DNA of 64,000 nt from Bryum argenteum (Eukaryota > Streptophyta > Bryopsida > Bryales > Bryaceae), in assembly GCA_037043015.1 (NCBI GenBank), contig CM073321.1, forward strand, positions 39,638,420 through 39,702,419, read 5' to 3'. Made by a program: the position numbers and the translations under genes. Shown here piece by piece: positions 11,371 to 45,365 of this stretch. The notes beneath the pieces are model-generated. The model was not told the origin of the DNA. It saw nothing but the letters and a program-made list of their open reading frames with translations, and ran no database searches. Numbering within the stretch: position 1 is the stretch's first letter; each line of letters begins with the position of its first letter.

Positions 11371-11398
11371 AACACATAATTCGTTATAATGGGAATAT
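11371..11398 (+). repeat. left terminal inverted repeat of the 34-kb element
   Basis: 28 bp starting AACACATAATTCG. It matches the reverse complement of 45334-45361 except at positions 6 and 10. The preceding GTGG is the candidate target duplication. Confidence 0.85.
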
Positions 11399-11887
11399 TC
11401 AAACTCTCAAAAACCAATCGACCTAAATTCCAACATATATATCAAGCTAAACGCGCGTGTTTTAGAGCGAAACGCGCGTGATGTAGAGCTAAACGCGCAT
11501 GTGGTAGAGCTAAACTGAATACAAAAGATGATGAAAGTAGCAAAAGCAAAATGCATCCTGACAGCAATTTGCAAAAAGAGCACAATAAAACGATAAACTC
11601 AATTAAACTGGGAATCGACAATCCACTCCGAAAATTTACAAACACTTGAATTGTTGACTTTAAGGCATAACAACTGTACCAATACTAAACTACGGATATC
11701 TATCGCTAGCAAAGATAAGAGGTAGGACTTCTACGTGCATTTCTAAGATGAATGTATTGGCAAAAAGTCACGACACGATAAATTGATAGCTCAAATTGCA
11801 CTGAGGTCACTTAGCTCGACTAGAGCTAAATTGGCATGCCCAAATAAAGTAGGGATGTCAGGCTACTCCTCTCCACCGTCGAACCGC
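11399..11887. other. subterminal region of the 34-kb element
   Basis: No gene was found. At 11447-11510 there are three copies of an AACGCGCGTG/AACGCGCATG word spaced about 25 bp apart, each next to a GAGC(T/G)AAA word. A degenerate copy of the element's palindrome lies at about 11811-11833 (TTAGCTCGACTAGAGCTAAA). Such iterated subterminal motifs are typical of transposase-binding zones; that role is inferred. Confidence 0.5.
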
Positions 11888-12990
11888 TCAATACTTTGTT
11901 TGATGATGTCGATTTGACGCTCCGATAATGAAATAATGGGACGCCGAGAGCCAAGTTTTGCACTTGATTTCCATGATGTAAAAAGCAGCATGAAGCCATT
12001 CCGGAATGTGAGTGTCTTCAACTTTCCATTTGAATGTCTTCATCGTATCCCAACCAGCATAGGTTTCCTGAACAACACTATTTTTTGATGCAGGTTGAAA
12101 ATATTGCATTTGAATACAGCCTGGATAGTTGTGATCAACATCGAAATCAGTTAGAGCCCTAGCAATCCAGAAAGGACGAGCATCCCCATTAGCTGGACGT
12201 AGAGCTACAAAATATCCAGCAAAAACATCTCGACCAACCCGAAACGACTCTCTTGGTCTATCACACAACCGTCCGATAAAGTGCAGATCACGCCCATATT
12301 CCTCTCGCAATCCGCCAGTATTTAAGATATCTCGTGTGGCAGGTTAAACTCGACTCGAGCTAAATGGGCATACCACTCCGTTGCAGGTTAAGCCCATTTA
12401 GCTCGACTCGAGCTAAATGTGCTTACTGCTCTGATTCAGTGCAAGCCTATTTAGCTCGAGTCGAGCTAAATGGGCCTGACCTTGTTTAAGGTCTGTGACC
12501 ATTTAGCTCCACTCGAGCTAAATGGACTTACTGCCCTGTAGCAGTTCAAGCCCATTTAGCTCGACTCGAGCTAAATGAGCTTGCACTGAATCAGAGCAGT
12601 AAGCCCATTTAGCTCGAGTCGAGCTAAATGGTCTTCTAATGAATCCTGAAGTATTGGACTTCATGAGCTTGTCCATATTTCAAGCATTTGTTATATGAAA
12701 CGGCCTCGATATTCGTGCACAGCAAATACTAAGAATCGTTCTTGGGAACTGTGCACAAGTAAAACATTATCTTTGCCTCCATTTCCGTGCACAACTACTC
12801 CGACTATATCCACATTGCCATCAGGAATGCACCACGATGAACGCAAGATATGACCAATCAACAACAAATTCTTGTTATACATTGACATTGCGGATATAGA
12901 TCGAACTTACCCTCACGCCGTGCTTGACAGCTGCAATACTTCAACGAAGGCCCTGAGCATCCTCAAACGCGGCACGCGCATCGACTCCAG
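11888..12990 (-). pseudogene. minus-strand gene of unknown function with ARPFWIARAL motif
   Basis: The 3' exon (12310-11888) encodes about 140 residues ending ...GASNRHHQTKY. The motif DARPFWIARALTDFD followed by a WKVED-x5-PEW segment resembles a small beta-rich module I have seen in plant mobile-element proteins, loosely like BAH or Tudor-type readers. This is weak recognition, not an assignment. An upstream exon (12888-12691) encodes LLLIGHILRSSWCIPDGNVD and VVVHGNGGKDNVLLVHSS, and a further one may lie at 12990-12905 before a GTAAGT donor. The interval 12690-12311 is a probable intron packed with six palindromes. Exon boundaries are uncertain and at least one stop lies in the first exon. 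Confidence 0.45.
12340..12632. repeat. intronic array of six palindromes
   Basis: Copies start near 12345, 12395, 12448, 12499, 12551 and 12605, about 50-53 bp apart. Each has arms TTTAGCTCGA and TCGAGCTAAA (or close variants) around one base, usually extended by GCCCA/TGGGC. The spacers near 12421 and 12578 are inverted complements of each other (CTTACTGCTCTGATTCAGTG versus CACTGAATCAGAGCAGTAAG). Confidence 0.9.
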
Positions 12991-13500
12991 AGCTTCTAAG
13001 AGTCCCAATCCCTAATCAAAATTTGCAAAACCGGAAGCACTAATGGTAATAGGGAGTTTAGGCGAAACGTAGTGTACAGAGACGAAGGGCAGAAATGCGA
13101 AGGTGCGGAGGTGAGGCGAAGGGCAACAGGAGCGGAGCACGATAGGAGCGGAGAGAGCACAGGAGCGGAGCAGGAGCGAAGGAGCGGAAAGAGCACAGGA
13201 GCGGAGCAGGAGAGGAGCGGAAAGCGCATAGTGCGCAAATGAGGAGAGAGCCAGAGCAAGCGGGAAGAGAAATGGCGGCAAAAAAGAGCACGAACTCAAG
13301 AGAGAGAGGGCGCCAAAAAAGGCCAGTAACGGTTGTGAGTAAATGCGATGTGGTTGGGAACTTCGGGGGGAACGGGGAACTTCACGAGGAACGGGGAACT
13401 TCGCAAGGAACGAGGACATCTTGGGAACTTTGGGAGGAACGAGGACATCTTGGGAACTTTGGGAGGAACGAGGACATCTTGGGCCAGTAAAAATCATTTG
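12991..13500. repeat. purine-rich minisatellites upstream of the minus-strand gene
   Basis: At 13110-13230 short GGAGCGGAGCA-type units are iterated on the + strand. At 13410-13480 a 27-bp unit containing GGAACGAGGACATCTTGGGA recurs about three times, with shorter GGAACTTCG-type units before it. This may be the promoter or leader of the minus-strand gene. Confidence 0.6.
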
Positions 13501-17997: not shown

Positions 17998-18775
17998 CAG
18001 CTCATTTAGCTCGGTGCTCATTTAGCTCGGTTCTCATTTAGCTCGATGCCCATTTAGCTCGATGCCCATTTAGCTCGATGCCAATTAAGCTCGATGCCAA
18101 TTTAGCTTCATTAAAGTATTTAATTCTCCAAGACCACCAAGCCCATTTAGCTCGAGTCGAGCTAAATGGGCTTGACCTGCACCAGGGCAGTAAGCCCATT
18201 TAGCTCGACTCGAGCTAAATGAGCTTACTGCTCTGATTCAAGGTAAGCCCATTTAGCTCGACTCGAGCTAAGTGGGCCTGACATCGCATGAGGTCCGTGA
18301 CCATTTAGCTCGAGTCGAGCTAAATGGGCTTGACTGCTACTGGGCAGTAAGCCCATTTAGCTCGATTCGAGCTAGATGAGCTTACTGCTCATTAGCAGGT
18401 TAAGCCCATTTAGCTCGACTCGAGCTAAATGGGCCTGATATCGAATGAGGTCCGTGACTGCACTGTGGCTGGGCAAGCCCATTTAGCTCGACTCGAGCTA
18501 AATGGTCACGGGCCTCATACGATGTCAGGCTGATTTAGCTCAAGTCGAGCTAACTGGGCTTCCATTGAATTAGAGCTGTAAGTTCATTTAGCTCGAATCG
18601 GGCTAAATGGGCTTACTGCCCTGTAGCAGGTCAAGCCCATTTAGCTCGACTCGAGCTAAATGGGCCTGATCTTGTTTGAGGTCCGTGACCATTTAGCTTG
18701 AGTTGAGCTAAATGGGCTTACTGCCCTGTTGCAGGTTAACCCCATTTAGCTCGATTTGAGCTAAATGATCTCGCC
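17998..18775. repeat. regular array of 12 palindromes plus half-sites
   Basis: From 18001 to 18115 about seven half-sites (CATTTAGCTCG) recur every 17-18 bp. From 18141 to 18770 full palindromes start near 18141, 18194, 18247, 18299, 18351, 18404, 18477, 18529, 18582, 18635, 18687 and 18740. The spacing is 52-53 bp except for one 73-bp step. Cores are about 31 bp (GCCCATTTAGC...GCTAAATGGGC) and the central base varies. Spacers fall into three families that occur in both orientations. The array lies just upstream of the first large gene and could act in its promoter or 5' intron. Confidence 0.92.
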
Positions 18776-18991: not shown

Positions 18992-21348
18992 GTAATACTC
19001 CACTTCATATCGATGTTCCCATCTGCTGTGTCCATTTAGCTCGAATCGAGCTAATTCACTTTCGGTTATTTTGTTATCCACAGGTCACTTATAATATGCA
19101 AGCCCTGGAGGGATTCCTTGCACCATTTCAACTCGAAGCACCAGACGATCCGCTTGCAACTATTGCTGTGGACGCGCAATGGAGGAAGTTGTGGACCCCC
19201 AAGACGAATTCCATCAAGTCTTGGTCGATTTGTCCGATGAACAAGAACCATTTCTTCTTCTATCAACAATCGGGGTCTCACGGGGCATTTTTGCCTCTGT
19301 GTCTTGATGCCTTCATCGAACTTGTTTCTTATGAAGACGAATTCCTCCAAATCAAGTTCGAAGCAGTGGCGGTCGAAGGTTTCGTCTTCACTATTGTTTT
19401 TCCCCCCAATGAAGTCCGTTTCTCCCACGACTTCATCCGCAACATATGGTCGAGAAGGTCGATCCTACTCGGCTTCTTCATATCGACACGAGATTGCAGC
19501 CCAATGTGTCTTCGACGAAAGCCTTCGTCAAATCGTACATTCCATACACTGCGCAGATCTGGAAGGCATTGTCTGATTTCGAGACTGCAAAGAAGAAAGG
19601 CAAGGCTCCGATGAAACGGTCCGGGAGTCTACTGTTGCAGGCTCCATCCGAGAATGCTCCGTCGGGTCTAGGCACTCCAGAGGGAAGTCTAGGCGTGCAG
19701 GGAACGAAGCGGCCAAACCCGATCTCATCCAGCTCTGGCTCCAAGAGGAGCAAATCCTCCGGCAGCGCACTTACGTTCATGAACCCTACAATGAATGTGG
19801 CTGTCTCGGAGAAGGAGATCAAGTATGAGGAAGCGACGAAGTCTCTGAAGGACTATTGGGACAACTGTGCAGAGTGTTATGTCTTCGGTCGTGACAATCC
19901 GCTTGACGTGTCGATCGACCTGCTCGACCCTGCCGAACCAAGGTTTATCGTACGATCTCTGGAACCGGCCGGCATAGAGCATTACAAGAACATCTTGATG
20001 AATTCCCTCGATGTTACTTCCAGGCAAACCATCATCATTATGCCGAAGATTAAAGATGAGTCTGAGATGTGGGATTGGGAAGATCTGGTCCAATCTTGTC
20101 GTTTCCGAATTATCGACGGGCAGCACCACGCTGAGGCTGCGAAACAGTTGATTCGTGACAAGAAGATCGACGACTCGAAGATCCTTGCCCTTCAGACATG
20201 GAAAGCCCATGTTGTGTGGCATTCCGACATTCGCAAGATTCTCGACGAGTCGGCCATGGCCAACAAGACAAACAATGCTGGGACGTTCATACCTTCCTGG
20301 GCAACGAACATCATGGGCGCCAGAAAGGTTTGAGAAGAGTATGGCCGCCCTCAAAAACTAAAGAAGCCGCATCGACGTGAAACACCGGTTGAAGTAGATA
20401 ACCGTAAGCGTTATGAGGTATGAGATTACTTGTTCTTTTCTTTTTCTGGTTGGCGTTGTTTGCATTGTCTGTCGAAGTTTTTGGGGACGTCGTTTTAGCT
20501 CGACTCGAGCTAAAACAGCATAGGTTGTTTCCTAATCGTTTGGCTTTGGTGCAGGCATTCGCGGCTGCTATGGTGAAGAGGTTCATCAGCATCAAGACTG
20601 ACGCGAAGGACAAGATCGTCAGACCGTCTGACCTTCGCAACAAGCTCCTCATCATCACATCTCCGGACGACGTCTACGAGTTGTGGAAGAGGTTCATCAC
20701 AGACTACAGTCTTGGAGAGCTGATCGACCCCGACACCGAGCTCCCATTCAATCAGGCGAAAGATTGGGAAACCGCCTCAAAGAAGTTCACCTCGAACAGG
20801 GAGTTCTTCAACGGAATGGGGCAATTAGACGCTGAGAACCTCAAGGTGTTGGCAGAGCACTTGCTGAACGAGACTCCGGATCGAACGTTGCCCTACCCGA
20901 AGGTGGCCGTGAGAAAGCCTGCGAAGAAATACTTCCAGTGTATGAGTGCGAAGTAGTGGGTCGAGAATCGGAAGAGGAAGAACACTGTTGCGAGGGAATT
21001 GCACAACCTCAAGCCCTTGTTGGATTTGTTCGACTCCGAGTGGCACTTCGACGTCGACAACTGGAGGAAATTTAAGGTGGAATACAATTTGACTCGTCAG
21101 ACTATGTCCATGCTTCTCTTGGTCCCGGGCGACTCGTTCTTCACCCTCTACCGCCAAAAGCAGACGAAGAATAGGAGTGCAGCAGAGATTTTCGGAATAT
21201 GCAGCCGAGTTCTTCAAGAAGTTTCTGGATGTCAAAGGGACGTTTGAACCTCCTGCATCGATTGTTTACACGCGGCTCTTCCGAATTCAAATTCGGGATT
21301 TGGGACAAGAACTACGCATGGAACCAATCTAGCAAGTGTGATATAGGC

Positions 21349-22932
21349 TATCGCGACCCTAATTACTCCCACTCATTTTTCTTCTCAACCGGCCACAAAA
21401 TGCGGGAAGAAAGGCTTGATGCCTTCTCCTTGAGCTCCTTGATCTCTTGTTGCAAGACATGAAGAGTTTTGACAAGCTCATGGAACATTTCCTCTCGTGC
21501 CTAAACCGCTTGTGGCCGTGTTTCCCGGGAACGGGACTTAGGGGATTTTCTTCCTCCTCATGGTGAGTGTCCTCCTCACAACTAGCAACTTCTCTTTGGT
21601 CTCCTTGGTCCTCTTTTATTTCCGCCGGCTCCTCCGAAGGACCTTAAGAAGACTCCTTGAGAGGAGTACCCGGCCTCAAAGGCTTAACTACGTGTCTTCG
21701 GGCCACATCACGAGCTTCCGGCCTCTCATGCCATCCTACTCTTGATTGGATCCCGTAACGTAGCCTGCTCTGATACCAAGTGTCGCGACCCTTATTACTC
21801 CCACTCATTCTTCTTCTTAGTGAGCCTTACTTGGTAGCGGAAACAGGAATCCGGCACTAGTTTTCCCGGGGACTAGTTTCGAGCGGGACTCTTTCCAACC
21901 CAATGTTGCGGGATGCTCAAGAGCATCCCACAATGCCCAAGATGTAGAAGTGAGGCTTCCTTTCCATGCCTCACCTTCTTGAGCCATTCACGGTCACTCC
22001 CGGGAACCGGCACTACTTATCACAGGGACTAACTTGGAGAGGGACACTTCTCAACCCCATGTTTAGAGATGCTCCAAAGCACTCTCCATTTTCCACAAGG
22101 TGCGGGAGTGAGGCCCCATCCCAAGCCTCACCCCTTGGAGCCACCCCGGCTCCTCAAGGCACCATGTGCAAGTGAGGAGGGAGACCACCCCTCCTCATAG
22201 TACTCTCTAGAGTCTTTGGTAGGCCCCCCCCTCTTGTGTTGAGGGGCCTTCCGTGACACACTTTTGTTTTGGAAGACCACCCGTTTTTGCCTTAGTCTCA
22301 AAAACGGGCTGTATCTTCTTTTCGGGCTAACTTGTAGCTCAGTCATCCAAATGGGACGTGCAAGCCCATTTTCGACATCTACTCTTTGAGTAGATGTCGA
22401 TAGAATCCTCACTTGTCCCAATCGGAGCTTCCATGTGGGAGCTATGCTCCTCTGAACATTCGGGAGTCCCGGGAGGCAGCAGTCCCGAAGTCCCGATGCT
22501 TCGGAGAGCCATATCTCCCAAAGCATTGTTTTGCTCCTCACGAGCCTTAGCATTTTGGAAAGCTCATGTTCAGAGCTTTCCAAAGACATGCAACATGCCG
22601 CCATCCATGAAGGACGACATTTTGAGTCCCAAAAGACAAACTCCCAAGTCCCGGAGTGTCCCGGAACGCGCTCCAACTTTGGAGAGTCATATCTCATGAC
22701 TCACAACTCCAAATCGCGCGTTCTGTGGACCCATGGGTGCGTGCTCAAACAAGGTTTCCAACCATGTAAGACACGCTACCAAGTTCGTCCCAAGCACACT
22801 GCTATTGCGTGCTGTTTGCTCGGGACTCTCCTTGGTCTCCTCACCTTGTCTCTTGCCAAGCCCGGGGCGTCACTCCCGGGGTCCTCTTGGCTCACCACGA
22901 TCTTCGGGCATCCTTTGGAAAGGGATGTGACA
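21349..22932 (-). mobile_element. LTR retroelement remnant with iMet primer site
   Basis: Flanked by the perfect pentamer TAGGC (21344-21348 and 22933-22937). Removing the element and one TAGGC restores the gene frame (C-D-I-G-L-I-D-L). A full LTR lies at 21781-22932 (TGTCGCGACC to GGATGTGACA in + orientation). Just outside it, at 21767-21778, is GCTCTGATACCA, the complement of the plant initiator-Met primer site TGGTATCAGAGC, so the element reads on the - strand. The other end keeps only about 60-70 bp of LTR (TATCGCGACCCTAATTACTC), and the roughly 400-bp interior has no pol motifs. It is a deleted or non-autonomous element. Confidence 0.82.
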
Positions 22933-23477
22933 TAGGCTTGATTGATTTGCAATCTGTCCCAGGGAGTGGAAGTAGAGTGGACGACACGGAGAGTCCATAC
23001 TTCCAAGAATTCCTTGATGTGTGGGCAGACACAGTGACCAATCCTCACATCAAGAATCCCGAGGTTTGGATGTTCATCACCTCCAACGTCGACCGTCACT
23101 GCCAGGCAATGGTTTACGTCGACAAGAAGTTGAAGGACGAGTACGCTCGCAACGCAGCCAACTACATGCCTGCCAGCAATAAGCGTTTCAACGGCATTGC
23201 AGAGGGAAAAGCTTCAGAGAAGCACTTGCTCCCCCTCCTCTTCCTTGTCAAGAAGAGCAGCCATGCTCAGAGTGTGTTGGATGCGATACCCTCTGTATTC
23301 TACGCTCCAGAGTTGCCCCTCTACTCGAAGTCCGGCGCGTACAGAGAACACGACCTTGGTCTCAGTGACACCGAGCTGCGATTGGAGTTCTATTGTTCGG
23401 TGTTGAAGATGCTCTCATCTCCGGGAGGGAAGTTTTTATCGATAATGGGTGGCAGAAAGCCACTGTTGGCTGGAATC

Positions 23478-23757
23478 GTAAGTACCTCGCACCATTCCTT
23501 CAATTGGAACTGCTCATGCTCGTTTAGCTCGAGTCGAGCTCAACACTCTCATGCTCGTTTAGCTCGACTCGAGCTAAACACTCTCAAGCATGTTTAGCTC
23601 GACTCGAGCTAAACGGTCTCCTGCTTGTTTAGCTCGAGTCGAGCTAAACGGTCTCATGCTTAAATCTCTTCAATTTGTTTTTTGTCTATGGCCTTTTAGC
23701 TCGAGTCGAGCTAATTCTTCTTAGTCTTCTTATAAGTTTCGTCTCCTTCTAAAACAG
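23478..23757 (+). other. intron with five palindromes in copy 1
   Basis: Donor ATC|GTAAGT and acceptor AAAACAG|ATG. Palindromes start near 23525, 23558, 23591, 23627 and 23693. Their flanking bases are CGTTTAG.../...CTAAACG or near variants, unlike the CCATTTAG form used in the upstream array. Confidence 0.8.
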
Positions 23758-24062: not shown

Positions 24063-25222
24063 TCGAGCTAAACTAGACTTATAGATTGGAGAGATAACCA
24101 TTCAGTTTAGCTCGATTCGCTACATTTAGAGTCTAAGTAAGACTAAATTTACTAAAAATTAGAGTGAGGTAATGAAAACAATCAAATCCTCAAACTCTAA
24201 AGTTTAGCTCGAATCGAGCTAAACTAAACGATTTCAATAAAATCATCTGAAATCTGGGAAGTTCAGCTCGAGTCGAGCTAAACTGTAGATCCGTTTAGCT
24301 CGATTCGAGCTAAACTAGGACCCTACGTAAGTCTGAATGTAAGATAGCTAATGTAAATATTCAAGTCCTCAAAGTCTAATGTTTAGCTCGATTCGAGCTA
24401 AACTAAACAATTTCATTACGCTTATTTGAAATCTGGTAAGTTTAGCTCGAGTCGAGCTAAACTGAGGCATCCAACTCGCCCAATATGAAACTCAGTTTAG
24501 CTCGAGTCGAGCTAAACTAAGACCCTGAGTAAGTCTGAATGAACCAAAATAAAGTGAGGTAATATTTGTTTTCTAATCCTCAAACTCTGAAGTTTAGCTC
24601 GAATCGAGCTAAACTAAACGATATCATTACAATTATTTCAAATCTAATTCGTTAAGCTCGAGTCGAGCTAAACTAATGAATAAACCTCGCCCAATATCTA
24701 ACTCAGTTTAGCTCGATTCGAGCTAAACTGTGACGCTAAGTGTGTCTGCAATTACCCCGAAAAAGGACTGAGCTAATGTAAATTTTCTGATTCTCAAAGA
24801 ATAAAGTTTAGCTCGATTCGAGCTAAATAAAACATGTCAATAACAGACTATTGTGATCGAGCTAAACTGAAGTAACCAACTCACACTGTATTAAACTAAG
24901 TTTAGCTCGACTCGAGCTAAACTTTGACCCTTCGTTTCTAGGATTATACCTTCAATATTTCTTGTTATGGATTTATTTCTTGTTAGGATTTAGCTCGATT
25001 TGAATATGCATACTCTTGTCGAGGTAGTTTAGCTCGACTCGAGCTAAATGCAGCCTACAAACTCGCTCTAATAGCTCACTCAGTTTAGCTCGAATCGAGC
25101 TAAACTGCGACCCTAAACAAGGAATCACAAAATATGAAGTTTAGCTCGATTCGAGCTAAACTTCACGATCAGAAAAAAGACTGATGATTACTAGTCAGTT
25201 TAGCTCGAGTCGAGCTAAACTA
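24063..25222. repeat. higher-order palindrome array between gene copies 1 and 2
   Basis: About 17 full or half palindromes with AGTTTAGC/GCTAAACT flanks. They are organised in units of about 190-210 bp, recognisable by a GACCCTAAGTAAGTCTGAATG-like word near 24129, 24320, 24523, 24733 and 24926. Each unit has about three palindromes with different central bases. The array begins with a lone right arm (TCGAGCTAAAC) exactly where copy 1 of the gene is truncated. Confidence 0.85.
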
Positions 25223-31025: not shown

Positions 31026-31298
31026 CAACGATTCTATTCTTCTTGCCTACTGAGTGCTGTACATCCAGTTTTGTTTTAGTTTTGTATTTTTTCACCCTGG
31101 TTTCGTTTTTCCTACATTGTAATTAACAAGTTTTGTTAACTGTATAGATCAGAGTGAAGTGTAATTAGGAGTCTAATTTTGAATATTGTATGTTCTGAAT
31201 GAGCTCAATCGACAAATCGTTTATATCGTCGATTATCGTGTCAATCATTTATAATAGGTTCCGCAGGGGGTTGTCGTGCTTGGTAGATTCGTTTATCA

Positions 31299-32056: not shown

Positions 32057-32321
32057 GGTAGTGATAGCTGGATTACTTTTGAATACAATGAATAAACTAT
32101 GTATTAATTACTCTTTGAGTAATTTATCATATATAAAGTTCGGAGATTTCAATAATATTCTCAAACTCCCCTCTTATACTATGGCTTTTGTGTCGATTTG
32201 CACTTTCCAACAACACCTGGAACGCAATGCAAGTGCCAAGGAGGAGGCTACCTCGAGAACTTGATACTGCCGACAAGAGAGATTGTCGATGAGGGCATCG
32301 ACGCTCTTTGATGGGGGTGGG
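32057..32321. other. spacer before the solo LTR
   Basis: AT-rich 3' region of the small gene, then a short unexplained segment to the LTR boundary. No gene was identified. Confidence 0.4.
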
Positions 32322-33648: not shown

Positions 33649-36066
33649 CTTGTCAAGAAGAGGAGCCATGCTCAGAGTGTGTTGGATGCGATACCCTCTG
33701 TATTCTACGCTCCAGAGTTGCCCCTCTACTCGAAGTCCGGCGCGTACAGAGAACACGACCTTGGTCTCAGTGACACCGAGCTGCGTTTGGAGTTCTACTG
33801 TCGGGTGTTGAAGATGTTCTCATCTCCGGGAGGGAAGTTTTTATCGATAATGGGTGGCAGAAAGCCAATGTTGGCTGGAATCGTAAGTACCTCGCACCAT
33901 TCCTTCAATTGGAACTGCTCATGCTCGTTTAGCTCGAGTCGAGCTAAACGAGCATGAGACCGTTTAGCTCGACTCGAGCTAAACGGTCTCATGCTTAAAT
34001 CTCTTCTATTTGTATTTTGTCCATGGCCTTTTAGCTCGAGTCGAGCTATTTCCTCTTAGTCTTCTTATAAGTTTCTGACTCCTTCTAAAACAGATGTGTC
34101 AGGCTGAGACATATGTTGTTATCAGCTAGACCGAGGCGGAGGCTTATACAAATGCTGCAACGGACTACCAACATGTTGACTACAACGATATCAACGTCGC
34201 AGTATACGTAAATCCGGAAGCTAATCGCGGTCCCAAGCCTTCTGCTGAAGGGTCGGGGAAGGGAAAGAAAAGGAAGTGTAAGAAGAAATCCACCCAGCCT
34301 GTAAGCGACGACTCTTCCGCTTCTGAGCACGAGCGTGAAGATGAAGGTGGTCCTTCTTCTCCGGCGGGGATGAATTCCCCCATGGATATAGCTGTTCCTC
34401 TCGTGTCTCCTCCCGCAATTGACTGGGCTGCGGTGGCAATTCCGTCCAGTACTGCTCGTGCTCCCTCTCGTGGTCGTGGTACTGCTCGTGCTCCCCCTCA
34501 GGGTCGTGGAAGCGGTCGAGCTCGGTCTTCTGCGTCTCATGGCCGCGGTACAGCACGCGCCCCTCCGCGCGAATCTACCAAGCGTTCTTCTTCTGAGGCG
34601 CAAGCTGGAGAGGCTTCTCGGTCCAGAAGCGCTACTGTGCCTCAAGCACAGACGGCGCTCGAAGCCAACTATGGCGCCTGCGATGTCGTCGGGGACATTG
34701 AGAGCCCCCCCCACCCGCGCTTGCGTCGTGGTCGACCATCGGAGGAGGATTCAGCTCGAGCCGAGCTAAACCAGCAGTCTCCTGGGGCCGCTGGGACTTA
34801 GGTTCAGCACAGGGTTCCACCCCCGGGGTTTCGAAGGGAGGTTAGTTCAAAGAACTCGAACGATCGCATCTACCGGGATCTCTTTGGCGAAAACGATGTA
34901 GTACCTGGGCAAGAGCGTGTGCCACGGGATGCATCATCATCCGACAGCTCTGACTCGTCAGACAATGACGATGTTGAGGGTTCGAGCGATGGCGACGGGG
35001 ACAACGATGACCAAGCTGATGATGCTGATCTCGCGGCCATGACCTTAGTCGACGAGGTGGCTCCTGATCCATCCCAGGAGGAGACTACTTTGGCGCCTCC
35101 TCCCCAAGGCCAGCAGAGCGCACCCAGGAGGCAGATTGAGAAGGGGAAGTACGACAAATGGTTCGTGAAAGGTGTTTGGAAGCCCGAGGACGAGCCGGAG
35201 GATACTATAGAAATCCGGTATTACGACTTCTCGGAGGAGCCTAGTTCTCCAAAGCCTTTGAGGGCTGAGGATGATCCTCTTCTCCCTGTCGTGCCTCTGC
35301 TCAGGGAAGAAGGAGAGCCTTCACAACCACCAGTGAAACTAGAAGTTGTCGCCCCCATGCTCACGAAGGATCAGAAGTGAGCACAGAAGCGGCAAGAGAA
35401 GAAGGCGCTGAAGGCTCGCAAGGCAGAGGAAGAAGTGGAGAGAGAGAGGCAAAGGTTAGCAGACATCGCAGCTGCGAATGCTCGAGTTGACAGATTGGAG
35501 TCCACATTCCTGAGCTCTCAGTCCGAAACCCGCATGGCACTAGGCAAGATGGAGCAGATGTTTCAATCATTCGGAAATATCTTATCCCAACTGCCTAGTT
35601 ATCCTAAACCCATTGCCTCCATCAACCCGGATCAACCTCACCTCAGCATCTGTGATGCGAGTCCACCAGCCATCGTCGGGCCTCCACAACCTCCTATTGT
35701 TGCTGAACCGGAAATCGCACCCCGCCCCATACCCCTCGAGATTTCAGAGAAGCCGACGAAAGAGGATGAAGTCCCGATTGAGGCAGCGCCGACGCCGACC
35801 CATCACACCGCTGCTGTCGCATTGGGGGAGCATGCAGAAGTTGCTCCTACCCATGACTCTCCCGTGGCTGCAACTGAGACGGCTATAACTTCACCGGTAA
35901 ATCCAGAGGTTAGTTACTATCCTTTCCTTCTCTTTGTCTTTGTGATCGTTGATGGTCATGGCAGTTGCTCTGCTATTCCCTCATGTCTTGAAGTTTTCAC
36001 AGTTAGTAATCTTAAAGCCGGCGCTCCTTGTTTGACAGGAGTCCGGCACCGATGTCGGCGAGTAGG
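33649..36066 (+). pseudogene. ParB-like/methyltransferase-like fusion gene, copy 3, 3' part only
   Basis: Nearly identical to copy 1 from 23247 to 24062 (AQSVLDAIPSVFYAPELPLY, GGKFLSIMGGRKPMLAGI), with the same last intron (33883-34093). It then continues past the point where copy 1 is cut. The extra tail is Ser/Arg/Pro-rich with GRGTARAPP repeats. A strongly acidic stretch follows (SDSSDSSDNDDVEGSSDGDG), then a charged helix (QRLADIAAANARVDRLESTF) and a Pro-rich end. The terminal exon is ESGTDVGE-stop after intron 35908-36039. Stops lie at 34799 and 35378. The 5' two thirds of the gene, including the ParB-like part, are absent and replaced by the solo LTR. Confidence 0.6.
33918..34050. repeat. 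extended hairpin palindromes in the copy 3 intron
   Basis: Two perfect inverted repeats overlap by eight bases. One spans 33918-33958 (20-bp arms, central G). The other spans 33951-33995 (22-bp arms, central C). A third, shorter copy lies near 34031. The flanks beyond the common 10-bp arm are different in the two but complementary within each. Confidence 0.92.
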
Positions 36067-36711
36067 TCGACGAGTAGTCTCCAAATTATTGGATGCTGTT
36101 TCGCATTTTGTACATAGTACAATTATAATCGCTGTACTTATTTGAAACATCATTCAATAAAATTGAGACTCTTTTATTTCACATCACTTTTTATCTTCAG
36201 TGAGTCTGCGTCCTTCTCATCACAAGGCCCTAAATTTCGTCCTTTTCTACCAGGCCCCCCTTCTGAATACCTTGTTCCGTCCGATTGCTTCAAAATCCCC
36301 CGCCAACCACCTCATGTTACCTCTGGGTGTGGCGGTTCAGTACCCAATCAGTGCTGGCAGTTCTTTGCATACTTCAGCATTTTGCAAGGTACACACCCTC
36401 TTGTTTTAATACCATTTGCCATTGTTACGTGTTCCCTCACTGCAGGCAGGACCGTCCAAACATCCCAAACAGCGTATCTCGCCCGAGCTACCCATTACGC
36501 ATATCTCTCACAGTCTTTTACGGTCCAAGCCCAAGTGGTTGAATGTGATGTTGGAGTTGGACGGGGTTCTATGTTCGATGGCCTCTGTGTCTACCCCAAC
36601 GCCTGCAGAGTGCATGTCTTTTCCGGATCCCAATAATCCTCCGGTGTTTTCCTCCACCGTCCCAATCTTAGTTGCCGGTTGGGTCGTCTACTGTCGTTCC
36701 GGGTTGACCGG

Positions 36712-37761
36712 TGTCATAAAGATTGTTGTGCATCCGGGTAAGCGCGGGGCTTCTTGGTACGGTAGTTAGTGTGACTTATGGAGGTGAATCTTCTATCAAC
36801 CTATTCACTTCAACCTATTCAACACTTTTACAACCTCCCGGCCACTTCAAGCCTTCATTTCTCCTTGCTCCAAATAGCTCCTTGCATGAAACCACCTCTC
36901 ACAAGTAGAATATCTTGCCTTCTAACACCTCTTAAAATCTCTCCTCATGAAACCTCTCCAAGCAAAAGATACGGCACAAAACGTAAGATGAAAAGTTTGT
37001 TCTCTTTATAGCTCATGAGAGAAGATACAAGCTAGATGCTTTGTGCATCTCTCACACCCTCCAACCAAACTCAACACCTTCTAAACCTCTATTATTGAAG
37101 AATACTTAGAGACACTCAAAATCCCACTCCAACTCACACATACCCACTAATCACTTGTTGTTCATGCCCAACTCCAAACTCCTAGCCAATTTATACTAAT
37201 CTACACCCAAGCTCTAACCAATAAGAAACCACCACATATTAGGTTACACAAAGAGGATTTTTGCAAGATTGGTCCAATGAGAAGCCTCCACATCGCCAAC
37301 TTGATGTTTTACCTTAATCGGTCCAATGGTAAGCCTCCACATGGTTGACTTTAAGCCTTCCTTGGTTGGTCCAATGGTAAGCCTCCACATGGTTGACTTT
37401 AAGCCTTCCTTGGTTGGTCCAATGGTAAGCCTCCACATGGTTGACTTTAAGCCTTCCTTGGTTGGTCCAATGGTAAGCCTCCACATGGTTGACTTTAAGC
37501 CTTCCTTGGTCGGTCCAATAGCAAGCCGCCTCCTTCGCACCACCTTATCCAACTAAATATCTAACTAAATATCTACTCTATCTAACAACCAAACGTCGGT
37601 TCTCAACCTTAATATCAACATAAACAAAGGCTAATCATGATCTCAACATAAACTAAACCCTAGCCACAACATAAAATCAATCCCACATTAACCACATATA
37701 AATTAGTACTAAACACCACTAAATAAATAATCACAACTACTAAACGGCCCACATCACGACA
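36712..37761 (-). repeat. 3' LTR of Ty3 element 2
   Basis: Coding-strand start TGTCGTGATGTGGG, end CTTTATGACA. A 48-bp minisatellite (GGTCCAATGGTAAGCCTCCA...) is repeated about four times at 37318-37510. It is present identically in the other LTR, so it predates insertion. Confidence 0.95.
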
Positions 37762-37780
37762 TCCACCCCTTCTAAACTTG
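37762..37780 (-). other. polypurine tract of Ty3 element 2
   Basis: The coding strand reads TTTAGAAGGGGTGGA immediately before the LTR start TGTCGTG. This is the expected primer site for plus-strand DNA synthesis. Confidence 0.75.
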
Positions 37781-37830
37781 CACATCTCTTAGAATGTGCA
37801 AATTTGGTTGAATAACGATGTGGGCCTACA

Positions 37831-38960
37831 TCAATGTTCAATGTAGTCAACTTGGTTTTCATCTTCATCAATCTCCCTCTCGACGTCTTCATCTACATCT
37901 TTAAAATTATCACCACGCCTTTTAAACAACTTGATTCGTTTTCCCGCAATCGGTAGCTTTAAGGTTGTACCGTCGAGCTCTCGCAAAGAATAGGTAGCAT
38001 TGTCGTGAACCAATTTGACAACATACGGCCCAAACCATCTCTTGGAGAATTTCTTGGTCGTACTATGTTGGTTGTCCAAACTACTATCGTAAACCAACAC
38101 CCAATCATCCTCTTCAATAGCTTTAGGCCGCAACCGATGCTTTCGGTCAAACCTCTCTTTGTTCTTCAATCTTGCTTCCTTCAACCGCTTGATAGCTTTC
38201 TCAATGTCCTCAGTCCTCCTTTCAAGTTGTCGAATCCTTAATGCCAACAAGTCCTCCCTTGTAAGACCATCCTCCCATGGCAAAATACTCCAAGTTGGAA
38301 CCACCTCTTCAATTGGCATAATTGGTTTTTGTCCAAACATCAACTCGCCGGCATATATCCCGTAACGGTGGTGCTATGAGTGGTTCGATCCGCCCACAAT
38401 GCAAATGGTAGTAATCGAGGCCACTCAAGCATCTTACCATCACATGCTTTAACCAATGCTTTCACAATTGGCGAATGCCCCCGCTCACTTTTACCATTAG
38501 CCTCCGGATTATATGCCGTTGTCAATGCAAGTTTAATACCCAACTTGCCAAAGAACTCTCGTGCTTCCTTCGCGTCCAATTCACCTCTATCCGCCGTAAT
38601 CTTCCCTACACAACCGTAACGGCAAATTACATCCTCCAAAAGAAATCGACATACTCCTTCGGTTGTCTTCGTTCGAAGCGCCCTTCCTTCCACTTGGTTA
38701 GACAAATCCTCCCGAGCAAGCACCAAATATTTCTTTTGTCCTATTCCCATAGGCATAGCAACCAAGTCCACAACCCACTTGTAATGCATCGTTAGTGGAT
38801 AGGTTGGATGTAACTCATCTCTATGACGAATACTTGAATAGACTTGGCAAGTCTCGCAAGATCCTACAAAGTCCGCCACATCTTTATAAATGCCCTTCCA
38901 CCAATATCTCTCCTTCACTTTGGCAAATGTTGCCCAAACTCCACGATGACGGCCCACCAA
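37831..38960 (-). CDS. integrase of Ty3 element 2
   Basis: Integrase inserts the element's cDNA. Reading leftwards from 38960, the zinc domain ends in CETCQVYSS. The core has Asp in YKWVVDLVAMP, Asp in ITADRGELDAKE and Glu in NPEANGKSERGH. The C-terminal part from 38343 carries KRWFGPYVVKLVHDNATYSL, the GPY/F module, and ends acidic (EREIDEDENQVDYIEH). One frame change lies near 38342 between the core and the C-terminal part. Otherwise it looks almost intact, consistent with a young element. Confidence 0.9.
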
Positions 38961-41224
38961 CCTTCATGAAACTCCTTGATGATTCGTTCTTGAGTTTCAA
39001 TTCCACATACAACTCTTTGTGGAACTCCACCCCTTAGCTTCGGATGCTTCCACAAAAATCCATTTCGAAGAAAGTAACCATAAGCCTTTCTTCGAATCCT
39101 CTTGAATTCTTGATCACTCCAAGTCTCTTGCTTCTTCAAGGAACTCAAGTATCTCCCAATATTTAGCCATTCTCCTTCATACAAGTCTTCCACAAACGCC
39201 TCAAGTGGTGTAGCCAAGCACAATCCTTCTTTCTTCACTAACGCCATGGTATAAAAATTGGTTCCAACATCTTCATCTTCGTCCACCATGTGCTCTTCAT
39301 CCTCGTACCTTGCCCGCGACAACATATCCGCCACCGCATTGTCCTTCCCCGCAATGTGCTTGAACTCTGGATTCATTGACTTGATGTAGGCTATCCACCT
39401 TAACATAGCAATATCCGGTGTAGAACAACTTGAAATCATCCCAAGTAGTGGTAGACAATCCGTTTCGACAACCACCGATGCACCAATCAAATACTCCTTC
39501 TCATGCTTCATAGCCGTAACAATTCCCCAAAGCTCCCTCTTCACTTGTGCATAGGCCCGTTGGCGAGAGTTCAAAACCTTTGCACCAAATCGTACTACAA
39601 ATCTATTTCCTTTACCATCATCTTGGCCAATTGCCCATCCAATCCCTATTGGGCTTGCATCCACCGTAATCACCACCGGTCTTCCCGAGTCGTAGTCAAC
39701 CTTCTTCAATGTTGGTGGAGATGAAAGAAGCTTCTTCAATTTCTTCATGGACTTGCTTTGCTCCACCCTCCATTGAAACTTTTGTTCCTTCCTCAACAAA
39801 AGATATAATGGATCCGCCACATGTGCAAAATGTGGTATCCAAATATGATAAAAGATGCATGCTCCCAAAAATCTTCGTACCTCCGTCGTGTTTGCGCACT
39901 CCTTCATCTTTTGAATGGCATCCACCTTCTCCATGGATGGCTTGCGACCATATGCTCCACACATATGCCCTACCACCGTAATCTCTTCAACTCCAAACAT
40001 TGATTTCACCCCCGATAAAGTTAAATGAACCTCCTCTAATCTTGTCAAGATCTTGTCACAATCGGCAATGTGATCCGCAACAAACTTCCGGCACCCCTTC
40101 AAATCCAACGTCTCATCTTTGTCCTCTTCCGCACATCCTTTGATAGGCACGTCATCAAGAAATGGCATAGTCTTTTCCGGAATAAAATCCCTCAAGACCT
40201 TGTTCATTCCATTCATCATGTGTGCCACGGAATTAGTAGCTCCTTGCGGTAATGTGCACATCCTCACCAAACCTAATGGCGTCCGCATCGTAGTCAAATC
40301 TCTACTCTCACCACCGCCAACTGGAATTGGTCGTATCCCGAATAAAGATCTCCCATCGAATAAATTGATCTTCCCGCAAATGCCTCCGCATACTCATCAA
40401 CAATTGGACTTGATCCCATGTTCGAATAGTTACCTTGTTCACGGTTGCATGTCTTGAATAAACCTTAATGCTCCATTTTTCTTTGGCACCGTAAACCACC
40501 GATTAGAATATGGTGCAATAGACGGCTCCAAAATTCCCATCTTGATCTTCTCGTTCAACAACTCCACAAGCTTTGGCAAATGAGCTTTAGGCACGGGAAT
40601 CGGTCGTAAATTCCATGGTGTATGCGAAATGGTAAAGATTACCATTGGCGCTACTACACTTGGATCAACACACCCAATTTCGTACGGCTCAAATGCAAAT
40701 GCCTTCCCATGCCGTAAGAGCATCTTTCGAAAAGACTCCTCCTCCATCTTGGTCAAAAAGTCTTCATTGCCAACCTTCAATCCATCCAACGCCGCCTTGT
40801 TCACGAATTCGTGGCCTATCTTCCTTGGATCTCTCAAATTTGGTTGCATAGATGCCTTATCAACCTTCTCCTCACAATCTAATGGTAGTGGCAAAGCCAC
40901 CGGTCTAACCTTCTTCGCCACGGTTTTGTACTTGGTCTCCACCCGTACCTCATAACTATCCGTGAATTTCTTCACCTCGTCATAAAACTCCTTGGAGTAA
41001 ACTCTCACAACCTTATCATCTTTTCCAACACCCGAATACAACAACACTTGTAATTCACTCATGGTATCACCCAAACATACTTCTTCAAAGACTCCCGAGA
41101 TATACTCACCTCCGTCAAGCACTCCATCCTCTTTCAACTTGTGCTCTACACTTTGGACACGACGCCTCTCTACTCGCTCTAATTTTTTGATGTTTTTAAA
41201 TAAAATAGAACCATCCCTAGACAA
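38915..41224 (-). CDS. reverse transcriptase-RNase H of Ty3 element 2
   Basis: From 41224 the pol frame has WNLRPIPVPKAHLPKL and YSNRWFTVPKKNGALRFIQD, the RT fingers region. A frame break lies between 40440 and 40300. The palm continues as RTPLGLVRMCTLPQGATNSV and TMPFLDDVPIKG, with F-L-D-D as the catalytic box. RNase H has VVITVDASPIGIGWAIG (first Asp), RELWGIVTAMKHEKEYL and ETDCLPLLGM, ending near GKDNAVADMLSRA. One or two sequence changes would be needed for continuous coding, so it is nearly but not fully intact. Confidence 0.92.
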
Positions 41225-41307
41225 ACCAACAACCCCCGTAGAAATGGCTTCTTGTGGTCTCCTTCCATGCGGGAAGCTATCAATCTTTTTACCATCCCAA
41301 TCCCGCC

Positions 41308-42330
41308 TTAGAATGGCATGTGGTGAAAATCCCTTCGGTCTTCAAAGTCTCGAAATTCCTTGTGCACCTTTGGTAATGGACGCTCCCTTAAACCAATCCG
41401 ATTTCTCTCGTGGTTGGCACAAACCGTCAAGAATTGAATAGCCTTCTTCCCATCACGGCTTCTAATCCTTGCGTACGCCGATCCGTTGTCCATCACCTTC
41501 GTTTCCATCCGTGTAGCGGTGATGTATGGTTGTCCAAGAATGATGGGATATGTCGACCTCTCTTGAACAAAGAAATGTTGTTCATCTCCAACATCTCCAA
41601 TTGTGACCTTCACATTTGGACATGCTCCATACAAATCACCCCTTGAATTGTTCGCCGCACGTATCAACCATCCATGGTCCAAATCTATGGGCCAATTTCC
41701 TTTTTCGTGCAACTCCTTTGACATCAAATTGATCTCCGACCCATGATCAATTAATGCCACAATCGGCTCTTCAAGAGCTCCCAACTTCACCAAAGTCTCC
41801 GTAGTTGCCCTCGCCCAATGATTGTTAGCATAATGACTTGGTGTTCGGTCTTCGCTCTCCTCCAATGCATTTGCAAGTTGAGAAACATGTCCTATAGGTT
41901 GGTCATCATCATCTTTTGCCACTCTCGCCACACGAACATTAGATGGAATAGACTCACCCGTAGTTTGCCTCTTCCTTTTGATGATATCAATGATGACTTC
42001 ATGAAACTCTCGCTTCGCAATGCCTAGAACTTCCCCCAAGGTAAACTCCACCTTTCCGCTCAAAATACGATCCTCCAAAACTTTTCTCAAATCCGTGGCC
42101 GCTTCAATGTCGGATTGCAATTTGTAAGACGGCGCCTTCCCCTTGTCTTTTGAAGAAGGAATTGCATCATGCATGGACTCCTCACGAATTGGCACCGTTT
42201 GTCGCGTCTTGTCCGCCCTTGTTGTCCTCTTTGATGCCCCTTCATGTACGTCGTCTCGCTTCCGCTTCTCCTCCATTATCGCCTCATGTTGGACTCTTGC
42301 AATATATGCATGAACCGACAAGGCATCCAC
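41308..42330 (-). CDS. protease region of Ty3 element 2
   Basis: 340 codons. EEPIVALIDHGSEINLMS gives the active site as D-H-G-S, a form found in a group of plant Ty3 proteases. TYPIILGQPYITATRMET matches the conserved later motif. The N-terminal half is a charged linker with KRKRDDVHEG. It lies between gag and RT as expected. Confidence 0.85.
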   Translation of the reverse strand: MDALSVHAYIARVQHEAIMEEKRKRDDVHEGASKRTTRADKTRQTVPIREESMHDAIPSSKDKGKAPSYKLQSDIEAATDLRKVLEDRILSGKVEFTLGEVLGIAKREFHEVIIDIIKRKRQTTGESIPSNVRVARVAKDDDDQPIGHVSQLANALEESEDRTPSHYANNHWARATTETLVKLGALEEPIVALIDHGSEINLMSKELHEKGNWPIDLDHGWLIRAANNSRGDLYGACPNVKVTIGDVGDEQHFFVQERSTYPIILGQPYITATRMETKVMDNGSAYARIRSRDGKKAIQFLTVCANHERNRIGLRERPLPKVHKEFRDFEDRRDFHHMPF

Positions 42331-42495
42331 CGGATCGTCCCAACCGTAGTTTCCCGAATGGATTTTCCGGCATGAATGAGAACTTCTTCATTGATCTTCC
42401 CATTCTCCGCAAACTTCTTAGCACTTGGCCACAACATACTTACTTGCTCCGGCGCGTCGATGCTCACTCCATATGTCTTTGCCTCCTTCGTCACG

Positions 42496-43580
42496 CTAAA
42501 GACCAATGCCTTCATACCTCCTCGACCGAAGTTTGTCTCCAACGGCTCCGTACCATCCTTCAAGTGAATCTTCCTTCTTTGAAAACAACAATCTTGTTGT
42601 CCAAAGCTTCGTAAACTCCTCACAATCTCTTTGCGAGTGTGCAAAACTATCACACCACATACACCTCAAAGGCAAGCCTCTCCCCGTTGGTGCCGACTTG
42701 ACCCTAAAGTCCCCTTCAATGCTCCTTCGATGGATGACTCTTCTCTTCAAGTTTGGCCATCTTAATCTTCAATTCTTGAATTCCCTTAATTAACTCATCC
42801 ATCGTTGAGCCATCAACCTTTGAAAAAGCATTAGTTGATTTGCTTGAAGATGGTGGTTTGACATCACATACCACACTTTTGTCCCTTCTTCGTTGTCGCC
42901 GCAAGTAGTGAAACCGCACCTACCACCTCCTTCCAATCCGTCTTCAATCCGCGCTCCGCTTCTCGATCCTCCAAAAGTGGTTCAAGCTTCTCTTGCAACT
43001 TTGGGTCCGCCGCTTGAATGAATAACTCGATTTTCTCGACATCCAAGGTCGTTCTTTCAATTGTCGACAATTGTCCATATTGCCGCTCAAATTCACGCAA
43101 GAGCTCACTTGCTCCTAAGCCCTTGTTGGGGCGCGTTATCCACTCTAGGAATGACCTCTTGGTTACCCTCTCCGAGTCCTCCATGAAAAACTCTTCCTTC
43201 AAAGCTTGGGAGAATGTTTCCCACGAATCTTGATGGGTCTCCTTCAATCCCTTGATCCTCTCTCGAATCTCGGGAATGGAAGCAAGTTCAAAGCTTTCCA
43301 CCATCTCATTCTTTGAAACATTGTTCAACTCCATCTCTCTTGTATAGATTCGTAAAAAACGAGTGACATCACGACCATCAAATTGATCTTCTTTATCAAC
43401 AACGGAATGTAATGCTTTGCTTACAAAAGCTTCTCGTCGTTGCATTCCTTGTCGTCGCTCCATGTGGAGTTGGAAAACTTCAAACATCCGCATGGTTTGC
43501 TCCATGTTGACTCCAAACGTCGCGTTCCCTTGACTGGCTCCTTCCATCTTCCACACTTCACATCCACCACAAACACACAA
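42496..43580 (-). CDS. gag of Ty3 element 2
   Basis: The capsid part (43580-42864) has DQFDGRDVTRFLRIYTREME and WETFSQALKEEFFMEDSERV, the retrotransposon gag fold that assembles the particle. After frame changes near 42890 and 42720 comes CMWCDSFAHSQRDC, one C-x2-C-x4-H-x4-C zinc knuckle. The start is probably the MEGASQGNATFG methionine and not the first ATG of the frame. Confidence 0.9.
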
Positions 43581-43599
43581 CTACCGCCCGGATATTCAC

Positions 43600-43618
43600 G
43601 TCGAGTTCACCAAAAATA
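43600..43618 (-). other. primer-binding site of Ty3 element 2
   Basis: The coding strand after the 5' LTR reads TATTTTTGGTGAACTCGACG. TGG followed by GAACTCGAC is the complement of a tRNA 3' end terminating in CCA. I do not assign the tRNA. Confidence 0.6.
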
Positions 43619-44668
43619 TGTCATAAAGATTGTTGTGCATCCGGGTAAGCGCGGGGCTTCTTGGTACGGTAGTTAGTGTGACTTATGGAGGTGAATCTTC
43701 TATCAACCTATTCACTTCAACCTATTCAACACTTTTACAACCTCCCGGCCACTTCAAGCCTTCATTTCTCCTTGCTCCAAATAGCTCCTTGCATGAAACC
43801 ACCTCTCACAAGTAGAATATCTTGCCTTCTAACACCTCTTAAAATCTCTCCTCATGAAACCTCTCCAGCAAAAAGATACGGCACAAAACGTAAGATGAAA
43901 AGTTTGTTCTCTTTATAGCTCATGAGAGAAGATACAAGCTAGATGCTTTGTGCATCTCCTCACCCCTCCAACCAAACTCAACACCTTCTAAACCTCTATT
44001 ATTGAAGAATACTTAGAGACACTCAAAATCCCACTCCAACTCACACATACCCACTAATCACTTGTTGTTCATGCCCAACTCCAAACTCCTAGCCAATTTA
44101 TACTAATCTACACCCAAGCTCTAACCAATAAGAAACCACCACATATTAGGTTACACAAAGAGGATTTTTGCAAGATTGGTCCAATGAGAAGCCTCCACAT
44201 CGCCAACTTGATGTTTTACCTTAATCGGTCCAATGGTAAGCCTCCACATGGTTGACTTTAAGCCTTCCTTGGTTGGTCCAATGGTAAGCCTCCACATGGT
44301 TGACTTTAAGCCTTCCTTGGTTGGTCCAATGGTAAGCCTCCACATGGTTGACTTTAAGCCTTCCTTGGTTGGTCCAATGGTAAGCCTCCACATGGTTGAC
44401 TTTAAGCCTTCCTTGGTCGGTCCAATAGCAAGCCGCCTCCTTCGCACCACCTTATCCAACTAAATATCTAACTAAATATCTACTCTATCTAACAACCAAA
44501 CGTCGGTTCTCAACCTTAATATCAACATAAACAAAGGCTAATCATGATCTCAACATAAACTAAACCCTAGCCACAACATAAAATCAATCCCACATTAACC
44601 ACATATAAATTAGTACTAAACACCACTAAATAAATAATCACAACTACTAAACGGCCCACATCACGACA
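43619..44668 (-). repeat. 5' LTR of Ty3 element 2
   Basis: 1050 bp, nearly identical to 36712-37761, with the same 48-bp minisatellite at 44226-44417. Confidence 0.95.
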
Positions 44669-45333
44669 CCGGGTTCCTTTGCTTACTAAATTTGTTTTGC
44701 CACATCCACGTCTGGAGTACCCTAGAGCCTAAGGTTGTCCATGGACTCTGCTGCTTTTTGTTCTCGAAGTCAGACGCTGCCCCTGGACTTGTCTTGGCTT
44801 CCAACCAATGCGATAATCTGTTGTTGAAGAATTACGCATTGCCAAGTACCCCGGCACGACAAATCCCATCCTCTTAAAATATCCTCGACGGCGGTTGTAT
44901 CCTAGGAAGGGTGCCAATTTCAATGACGATAACTTGCTCATTGTCAATTCCAAGCCTGAGACTTGCAATGCGGTTCCCACAAAGAACACACTTTTTACTG
45001 TTCCGTGGAACCATTCCTGTCCGGAGGATGATACTTACCTAAGAATGATACTTCTGGTGATACCTCCTCTCCGCCACGTCGTAATTGGTAGATAATATAG
45101 TGCCTACCTGTTGGAGGTCTACAATTACACCAATAAATTGTATTTGTGCTTTCATATGAATAAAATTTTCTCTTGGGGGAGCATATTTCTTAGCTTGCAT
45201 TATGAAATCTTTTTTATTTTTGTCTTTTTATATTGAGAAAATTCATCATTATCAGTAAAAACCTGGTGATTTGGTAACTAATCAGGTCAGAATCGATCTA
45301 AATGGAAGTCTCCCTAATTACCAAAATCAGTAT

Positions 45334-45361
45334 ATATTCCCATTATAACGAGTTACGTGTT
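45334..45361 (-). repeat. right terminal inverted repeat of the 34-kb element
   Basis: Reverse complement of the left terminus with two mismatches; ends ACGAGTTACGTGTT. It is followed by GTGG, then the interrupted ORF resumes. Confidence 0.85.
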
Positions 45362-45365
45362 GTGG

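Follow-up and report, generated by a model that had tools for sequence, protein, structure and literature searches.

A giant nested DNA transposon copy in Bryum argenteum, its ParB-like genes and its arrays of one 21-bp palindrome

Between positions 11371 and 45361 of a 64,000-bp stretch of the Bryum argenteum genome (contig CM073321.1, 39,638,420 to 39,702,419; the window) lies a 34-kb segment with inverted-repeat ends, ParB-like genes and dozens of identical palindromes, which raises the questions of what kind of mobile element this window copy (W) represents, how it came to move and what its palindromes are for. The reading that we favour as on balance probable, after searches of the 258.8-Mb genome, is that W is a nested DNA transposon copy from which most of the likely transposase gene has been deleted, and that the ParB-like protein of its family binds the palindromes as a means of self-regulation.

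Ends, target duplications and related copies

The ends of W are those that an earlier reading, made from the letters of the window without database searches (the sequence-only reading), had described: 26 of the 28 positions of the terminal inverted repeats match, the repeats lie at exactly 11371 and 45361, and GTGG is present on both sides. With up to two mismatches, the 28-bp end has 464 forward and 458 reverse matches in the genome (922 in total), which are not due to chance, since the reversed control has none. That reading had also noted that a split host open reading frame (ORF) rejoins; the frame is indeed open once W and one GTGG are removed, but this is weak taken alone, as two frames are open across the joint. 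The joined 300-bp target has 29 genome matches, 14 of which span the junction at 72-82% identity, one of them (C1:38173226-38173436) over a length equal to that of the query stretch, and these are element-free paralogues of the W target. The proposal had hinged on second copies and empty sites, and the genome holds hundreds of termini, 4-bp duplications and element-free paralogues; W is a real transposon copy.

Pairs of ends were chosen by position only, among the 40 best ends of each side, left and right. Eighteen core-type pairs were read, namely ten 2.9-21.5 kb apart, seven 25-69 kb apart and W itself, and all 18 are flanked by perfect 4-bp target duplications whose sequence is not fixed; one of these, AAAA, is weak taken alone. 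The related copy M has the duplication TACA, read by eye. Nine of the ten other copies fetched measure 17.0-21.5 kb, and the tenth (copy F, L027) is a compact, non-autonomous internal-deletion derivative of 2.93 kb that keeps both ends and the duplication TGGT. Copy I is inserted, elsewhere in the genome, in sequence like the second element inside W. At least two sets of ends exist, the core type (AACACGTAATTCG...) and the K type (AACCCCATATTCG...), the latter with 69 + 69 genome matches against 0 for its control; among nine K-type pairs chosen by position, seven have a 4-bp duplication. Terminal inverted repeats, a duplication of fixed length, an element-free target and many copies together mark a cut-and-paste DNA transposon. 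A 4-bp target duplication is described for Sola2 in excerpts of PMC3627910, and in this respect the elements (18 of 18 core-type and 7 of 9 K-type pairs) are like the Sola superfamily; they differ in that their candidate transposase is classed in Pfam only as DUF7869.

Apart from the pairs read, two inverted core-type ends lie only 151 bp apart at C1:24448644-24448794, possibly a tiny derivative, and at C1:18378587-18379465 two K-type ends that point the same way are separated by 0.9 kb.

The candidate transposase

The sequence-only reading had found no recognisable transposase, which stands in so far as W has no intact gene, but a C-terminal tail of a DUF7869 (PF25273) protein remains near its left end. 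In other copies the gene occupies about 3 kb missing from W, as a minus-strand open frame of 636 residues in copy C and 755 in copy D, the latter matching PF25273 with a Pfam E of 2.7e-44. The search of other copies for a transposase, which had been proposed as a check, thus yielded a candidate in several of them, although copy K has none in the 23.5 kb read. The DUF7869 protein is likely to be the transposase of the family. It has 209 homologues; among the best 120 listed, the longer ones are mostly of 935-990 residues, and seven come with an organism name, all from the mosses Physcomitrium and Ceratodon, so that the description of the element as a plant one is plausible but not proven. One of the homologues (P0074) and a homologue of the methyltransferase-like cargo region (P0140) both have 109202 as their longest contig and are perhaps from the same record.

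In an alignment of 46 sequences (45 of the 120 listed homologues and the query), near-invariant acidic residues stand in HDKMD, LDN and HTHEDID, which we take to be the pattern of a DDE/D enzyme. Evidence on the other side comes from the AlphaFold model, which has a mean predicted local distance difference test score (pLDDT) of 64, falls below 50 at residues 407-573 and is poor over the expected catalytic domain; a fold search with it matched nothing relevant. Because the fold prediction failed for the supposed catalytic part, that the protein catalyses transposition is something we infer. PDB profile searches gave one irrelevant match with A1 and none with A2, and a literature search on DUF7869 found no paper. 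Ginger transposases are integrase-like (rve domain), and a Ginger affiliation is not supported, as only PF25273 scored above the cut-off in copy D, P0001 and P0008, with no integrase domain. Pfam lists DUF7869 as a domain of unknown function, and the analysis suggests that it serves as a transposase.

Judged by its sequence, W is a derivative that lacks an intact transposase gene and is presumably moved in trans by the DUF7869 protein that its relatives encode. The earlier suggestion of a non-autonomous element moved in trans suits W well, since the relatives carry the gene in the very 3 kb or so that W has lost. A further DUF7869 gene, 38-51% identical to the core one over the matched pieces, is present at locus L059, which adjoins a palindrome array and has a K-type ParB gene about 7 kb away; this is probably one K-type element, and DUF7869, ParB and palindrome seem to have stayed together through deep divergence, a point against which copy K again has to be set.

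Palindrome arrays, ParB-like proteins and the cargo module

The dozens of palindromes reported from the letters alone are borne out: the window holds 41 exact copies of the 21-bp TTTAGCTCGANTCGAGCTAAA and 50 of its 17-bp core, none of the 50 outside the element, and 59 matches at 15 or more of 20 positions, against 0-1 in 10 mononucleotide shuffles. The 21-mer occurs exactly 5,878 times in the genome and its reversed control not at all; elsewhere, three single sites were found in prokaryote contigs (genome_contigs) and no match in IMG/VR. The arrays sit upstream of the transposase, upstream of the ParB-like gene, between it and the adjoining region, and further on. Among 100 places listed, which fall in the first 1.32 Mb of C1, ten clusters can be told apart when sites less than 10 kb apart are joined, and a ParB-like gene lies in or beside seven of them, the other three being of one or two sites each and unread. 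A short run of TTTAGGG, the plant-type telomere repeat, lies near position 6058 of L040 (K), close to the array of a K-type element.

Six sets of palindromes were compared (copies A-E with G-J, the W core, the W insert, K, L038 and M). The centre is conserved at 32-66% and the 20 fixed positions at 80-100%, with 91-100% for these positions in four sets; sites were picked by 15/20 matching, which inflates the inner conservation, and most have no or one mismatch (the share is lowest in M, with 20 of 30; in the insert, 25 of 28 have none). The palindrome is common to lineages with ParB proteins of about 30% identity. Past two or three bases, conservation in the flanks drops to about 33-69% in the insert and L038 sets. 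The palindromes might work through DNA or RNA structure, as cruciforms, as signals for replication or recombination or as hairpins in transcripts, with no dedicated protein, and their perfect symmetry, their dense arrays and the location at palindromes of the W rearrangement junctions 12344 and 24064 would suit such a role; a stem requires pairing only, however, yet the sequence is fixed across lineages while the centre varies, and a fixed sequence with a variable centre base is the pattern of a binding site. We regard a purely structural role as unlikely.

The candidate reader of such a site is the ParB-like protein, which is encoded on the other strand from the transposase candidate. When the ParB-like frame of copy D was submitted to Foldseek, the top 21 of 405 matches were ParB, Noc, KorB or sulfiredoxin (probability 0.84-1.00, best E 0.006), so that a ParB fold is supported by a low-confidence model. 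The likeness to ParB, Noc and KorB lies in the fold predicted for the central domain, and the sites of these proteins are palindromic DNA. The copy D protein has nine homologues in the protein database; against the genome, the protein P0121 gave 93 scored matches from 1,039 candidates (81 at 71-81% and 12 at 53-57% identity), while for the K-type protein 925 candidates yielded 105 matches. W carries two such genes, the second about 29% identical to the type of the first over the matched stretch. The sequence-only reading had listed three, together with two phosphatase-like genes; the latter and the ParB-like label were retained, but the supposed third gene was rejected, as the ORFs at 60841-61995 lie outside W, match no cargo protein and yielded nothing from Pfam at E values up to 0.1.

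A ParB-like fold and palindromic arrays would also be at home in a partition or copy-number system, in which the protein, bound to a parS-like array, maintains an extrachromosomal form of the element. We hold this to be very unlikely, as no ParA-type ATPase was found among the ten proteins given to Pfam, and there are several arrays per element, located at genes; unlike ParB/parS, the present system belongs to a eukaryotic transposon with many sites in each element.

In the reading that we prefer, the ParB-like protein would bind TTTAGCTCGANTCGAGCTAAA in the manner of ParB at parS or of VANC at its arrays of motifs, and the bound protein would spread or recruit partners, with the outcome that the element's own genes are kept transcribed or unsilenced in a sequence-specific manner; binding with anti-silencing or autoregulation as its effect is what we infer. 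Several observations weigh against it. None of the fold matches has an E below 0.006, their TM-scores to the target are 0.30-0.51, and the model has a mean pLDDT of 58.8; P0121, P0122 and the L037 ORF have no Pfam match, ParBc included, and a PHROG ParB-like partition protein was matched only below significance (E 0.06-0.26). Stops interrupt many of the scored ParB matches, in part because the match extends into an intron. The core, W-core and M sets keep some flank positions high (up to 97%), because the palindrome units are tandem copies, and two of the nine K-type end pairs have no duplication. Finally, some palindromes read in frame within apparent coding frames. Peptides that they would encode (LAR.EL or FSS.RA.) occur in 4 of 142 homologous proteins, all relatives of the methyltransferase-like region, against seven matches in 200 shuffle rounds of the set; they were not counted as proof across species.

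Beyond the ParB-like gene the cargo forms a module of constant order in divergent lineages, with a methyltransferase-like region either fused to the ParB-like part or placed after it, an acidic protein and a NIF phosphatase-like gene; it is present at all three of the other palindrome clusters first fetched (L037, L038 and L039), and no module gene was found in the stretch chosen at L058, which fell between two arrays. The last gene matches the NIF/HAD family (PF03031, E = 1.3e-5, 1e-8 and 9.1e-13). The catalytic motif of these phosphatases is DxDx(T/V), and none of the 14 of 15 sequences in which motif I is readable has it, the first Asp being replaced by Glu in 11 and the second by Asn in three. 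DNA N6A/N4C methyltransferases are marked by (D/N/S)PP(Y/F/W), which occurs in none of 13 homologues of the methyltransferase-like region, while GIID(L/F)RxVPG or a close form occurs in nine; nor did the region match any family above the cut-off in Pfam (two parts of copy D, and L038) or in PHROGs (L038). The methyltransferase label given earlier is not supported, and a methyltransferase function cannot be taken as shown.

Judged by the ratio of nonsynonymous to synonymous substitution rates (dN/dS, by NG86), the cargo is under purifying selection. Between copies D and M the ratio is 0.29 for the transposase, 0.22 for ParB, 0.22 and 0.16 for the adjoining region and 0.29 for NIF; between E and M it is 0.44 for the acidic protein and 0.54 for the last frame. 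The insert type gives 0.34 (ParB) and 0.63 (NIF) against L038, and 0.14 (ParB, with dS 2.7, saturated) and 0.32 (NIF) against K, and K against L038 gives 0.26 for NIF, dS being undefined for the K-L038 ParB and L038-K adjoining-region comparisons. In closer copies the ratio lies at 0.13-0.69 for ParB, the adjoining region and NIF; for the last frame it reaches 1.19. Stops in many scored ParB matches and ratios up to 0.69 between some close copies would be expected of passengers, host-derived genes carried without function for the element, but this account is hardly credible given 0.14-0.32 (ParB, adjoining region, NIF) in the more divergent comparisons for which dS is defined (D-M, insert-K and K-L038) and a gene order identical in divergent lineages. 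Since the genes are under selection and lack the catalytic residues, the enzyme-like proteins are suggested to serve in binding.

An element of this kind is already known in print from Ectocarpus, where, according to excerpts of PMC12477816, the 21.5-kb Sola-1 transposon Sola1-1_Ec32 encodes, on the strand opposite to its transposase, a 1104-aa protein with ParB-like and DNA methyltransferase parts. The excerpts also cite red- and green-algal parallels as well as Iyer et al. 2011 and Petroll et al. 2025, and describe nested insertions and giant families without a transposase (PMC12477816). The earlier claim of an undescribed family, with a cargo not known for Sola or Ginger elements, was therefore too strong. 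The Ectocarpus authors proposed that proteins of this kind may bind the transposon that encodes them and modify it (PMC12477816), and self-methylation of this sort would suit the opposite strands of the ParB-like gene and the transposase candidate seen here too; with no family match above the cut-off, no (D/N/S)PP(Y/F/W) in the 13 homologues and GIID(L/F)RxVPG or a close form in nine of them, we find it quite unlikely for the present family.

Compared by description, the two systems share a giant DNA transposon, a ParB-like gene opposite the transposase, nesting and transposase-less forms; here, unlike in Sola1-1_Ec32, there are a NIF phosphatase-like gene, an acidic gene, a region after ParB without methyltransferase motif, and palindrome arrays across the genome. 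The main text of PMC12477816 has no occurrence of palindrom*, and searches of open-licence papers found no report of ParB with palindrome arrays in transposons. What looks new is the DUF7869 candidate transposase, the four-gene module without the catalytic motifs sought, and the single palindrome across lineages.

In its way of working the proposed system is analogous to VANDAL21 and VANC of Arabidopsis, in which, according to excerpts of PMC5735166 and PMC10398659, VANC proteins encoded by the elements bind arrays of a motif in non-coding VANDAL sequence and cause silent marks to be lost; in both cases arrays of a short motif lie in non-coding parts, including introns and upstream regions. 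The VANC21 motif is of nine bases, YAGTATTAY (PMC5735166), whereas here a predicted ParB-like fold goes with one 21-bp palindrome. VANC target repeats diverge rapidly (PMC10398659), which tells against the analogy, as this palindrome is common to divergent lineages. It is possible, though somewhat short of an even chance, that several diverged lineages of giant transposons in a genome of the plant lineage share one exact 21-bp palindrome, set in arrays at their own genes, as a common code for anti-silencing or self-identification, each reading it with its own ParB-like protein, and that the attached enzyme-like region and the phosphatase, their catalytic residues lost, now recruit or shield. 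If the ParB-like protein does bind the palindrome, one code would serve diverged lineages at thousands of sites per genome, sequence-specific self-regulation of transposons would extend beyond VANDALs by way of a bacterial-type DNA-binding fold, and a handle would be gained on the role of ParB-type accessory genes in the giant transposons of algae. In the relatives of W, the pairing of a bacterial-type DNA-binding gene with dozens of copies of one exact palindrome suggests that such elements have built their own means of recognising and controlling their DNA.

Nested structure of the window copy

The ends reported for W are real, but its 34 kb are inflated by a Gypsy element of about 8 kb, a second element of about 9.6 kb and another insertion of about 1.6 kb; against copies A-J it reads as a shared core plus insertions, and W as a single 34-kb unit was ruled out (Table 1). 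The long terminal repeats (LTRs) of the Gypsy-type insertion are 99.5% identical over 1,051 columns, and the insertion is young. The second, ParB-carrying related element sits inside 24064-33649, with flanking duplications at its sides, and W as a whole holds two copies of the methyltransferase-like region plus a duplicated fragment. Two stretches present in other copies are missing from W, one of about 3 kb that would follow 12344 and one of about 1 kb close to the right end.

Table 1. Features of the window copy and its target site (positions in the window)
Feature	Position	Strand	Remark
Target site duplication GTGG, left copy	11367..11370	.	sequence read directly
Left terminal inverted repeat, 28 bp	11371..11398	+	read directly; genome-wide terminus matches
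C-terminal remnant of DUF7869 (PF25273) candidate transposase	11866..12343	-	rest deleted in W; longer frame elsewhere
Deletion junction at palindrome	12344..12364	.	core ~1265 to ~4290 (copy E numbering); boundary from BLAST
Palindrome array TTTAGCTCGANTCGAGCTAAA, transposase side	12385..12628	.	exact matches
Palindrome array	18134..18765	.	spacing mostly 52-53 bp; upstream of ParB-like gene 1
ParB-like gene 1, core type	19027..20420	+	tblastn span; frame broken near 19444
Methyltransferase-like region, first part	20417..21357	+	probably spliced to ParB
Insertion of ~1.58 kb, splits methyltransferase-like region	21350..22925	.	12-bp near-duplication GTGAYATAGGCT
Methyltransferase-like region, remainder	22926..23594	+	protein match
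Second element-type insert	24064..32321	.	limits inferred; 25133-31530 92% identical to L038
Palindrome array of insert	24093..25220	.	upstream of ParB-like gene 2
ParB-like gene 2, insert type	25251..26586	+	protein match
Methyltransferase-like region of insert	26819..28511	+	protein match
Acidic/low-complexity protein of insert	28759..29612	+	protein match
NIF/HAD phosphatase-like gene of insert	29896..31022	+	PF03031 E=1e-8; motif I DLNG
Duplicate of 23244-24064	33649..34400	+	88% over 822 columns, gaps included
Acidic/proline-rich core protein	33983..35941	+	protein match
NIF phosphatase-like core gene, 5' part	36410..36727	+	motif I ELDG; copy D PF03031 E=1.3e-5
Gypsy-type LTR retrotransposon	36712..44668	-	LTRs 36712-37761 and 43619-44668; flanking 4-bp match CCGG
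NIF phosphatase-like core gene, 3' part	44668..45029	+	protein match
Right terminal inverted repeat, 28 bp	45334..45361	-	read directly; genome-wide terminus matches
Target site duplication GTGG, right copy	45362..45365	.	sequence read directly

The two rearrangement junctions at palindromes, both with boundaries taken from BLAST, look as if the arrays promoted deletions. Sequence at 21984-22932 recurs inverted at 32322-33283 (about 950 bp, 90% identical), and the pair are perhaps two copies of a small element. Across the genome, contig C1 makes up 44.1 of the 258.8 Mb (17% of bases) yet is enriched in elements, with 47 of 66 K-type termini at up to one mismatch, 39 among the 40 best K-type right ends and 75 of the 93 scored ParB matches, and it may be a sex chromosome or a chromosome rich in repeats.

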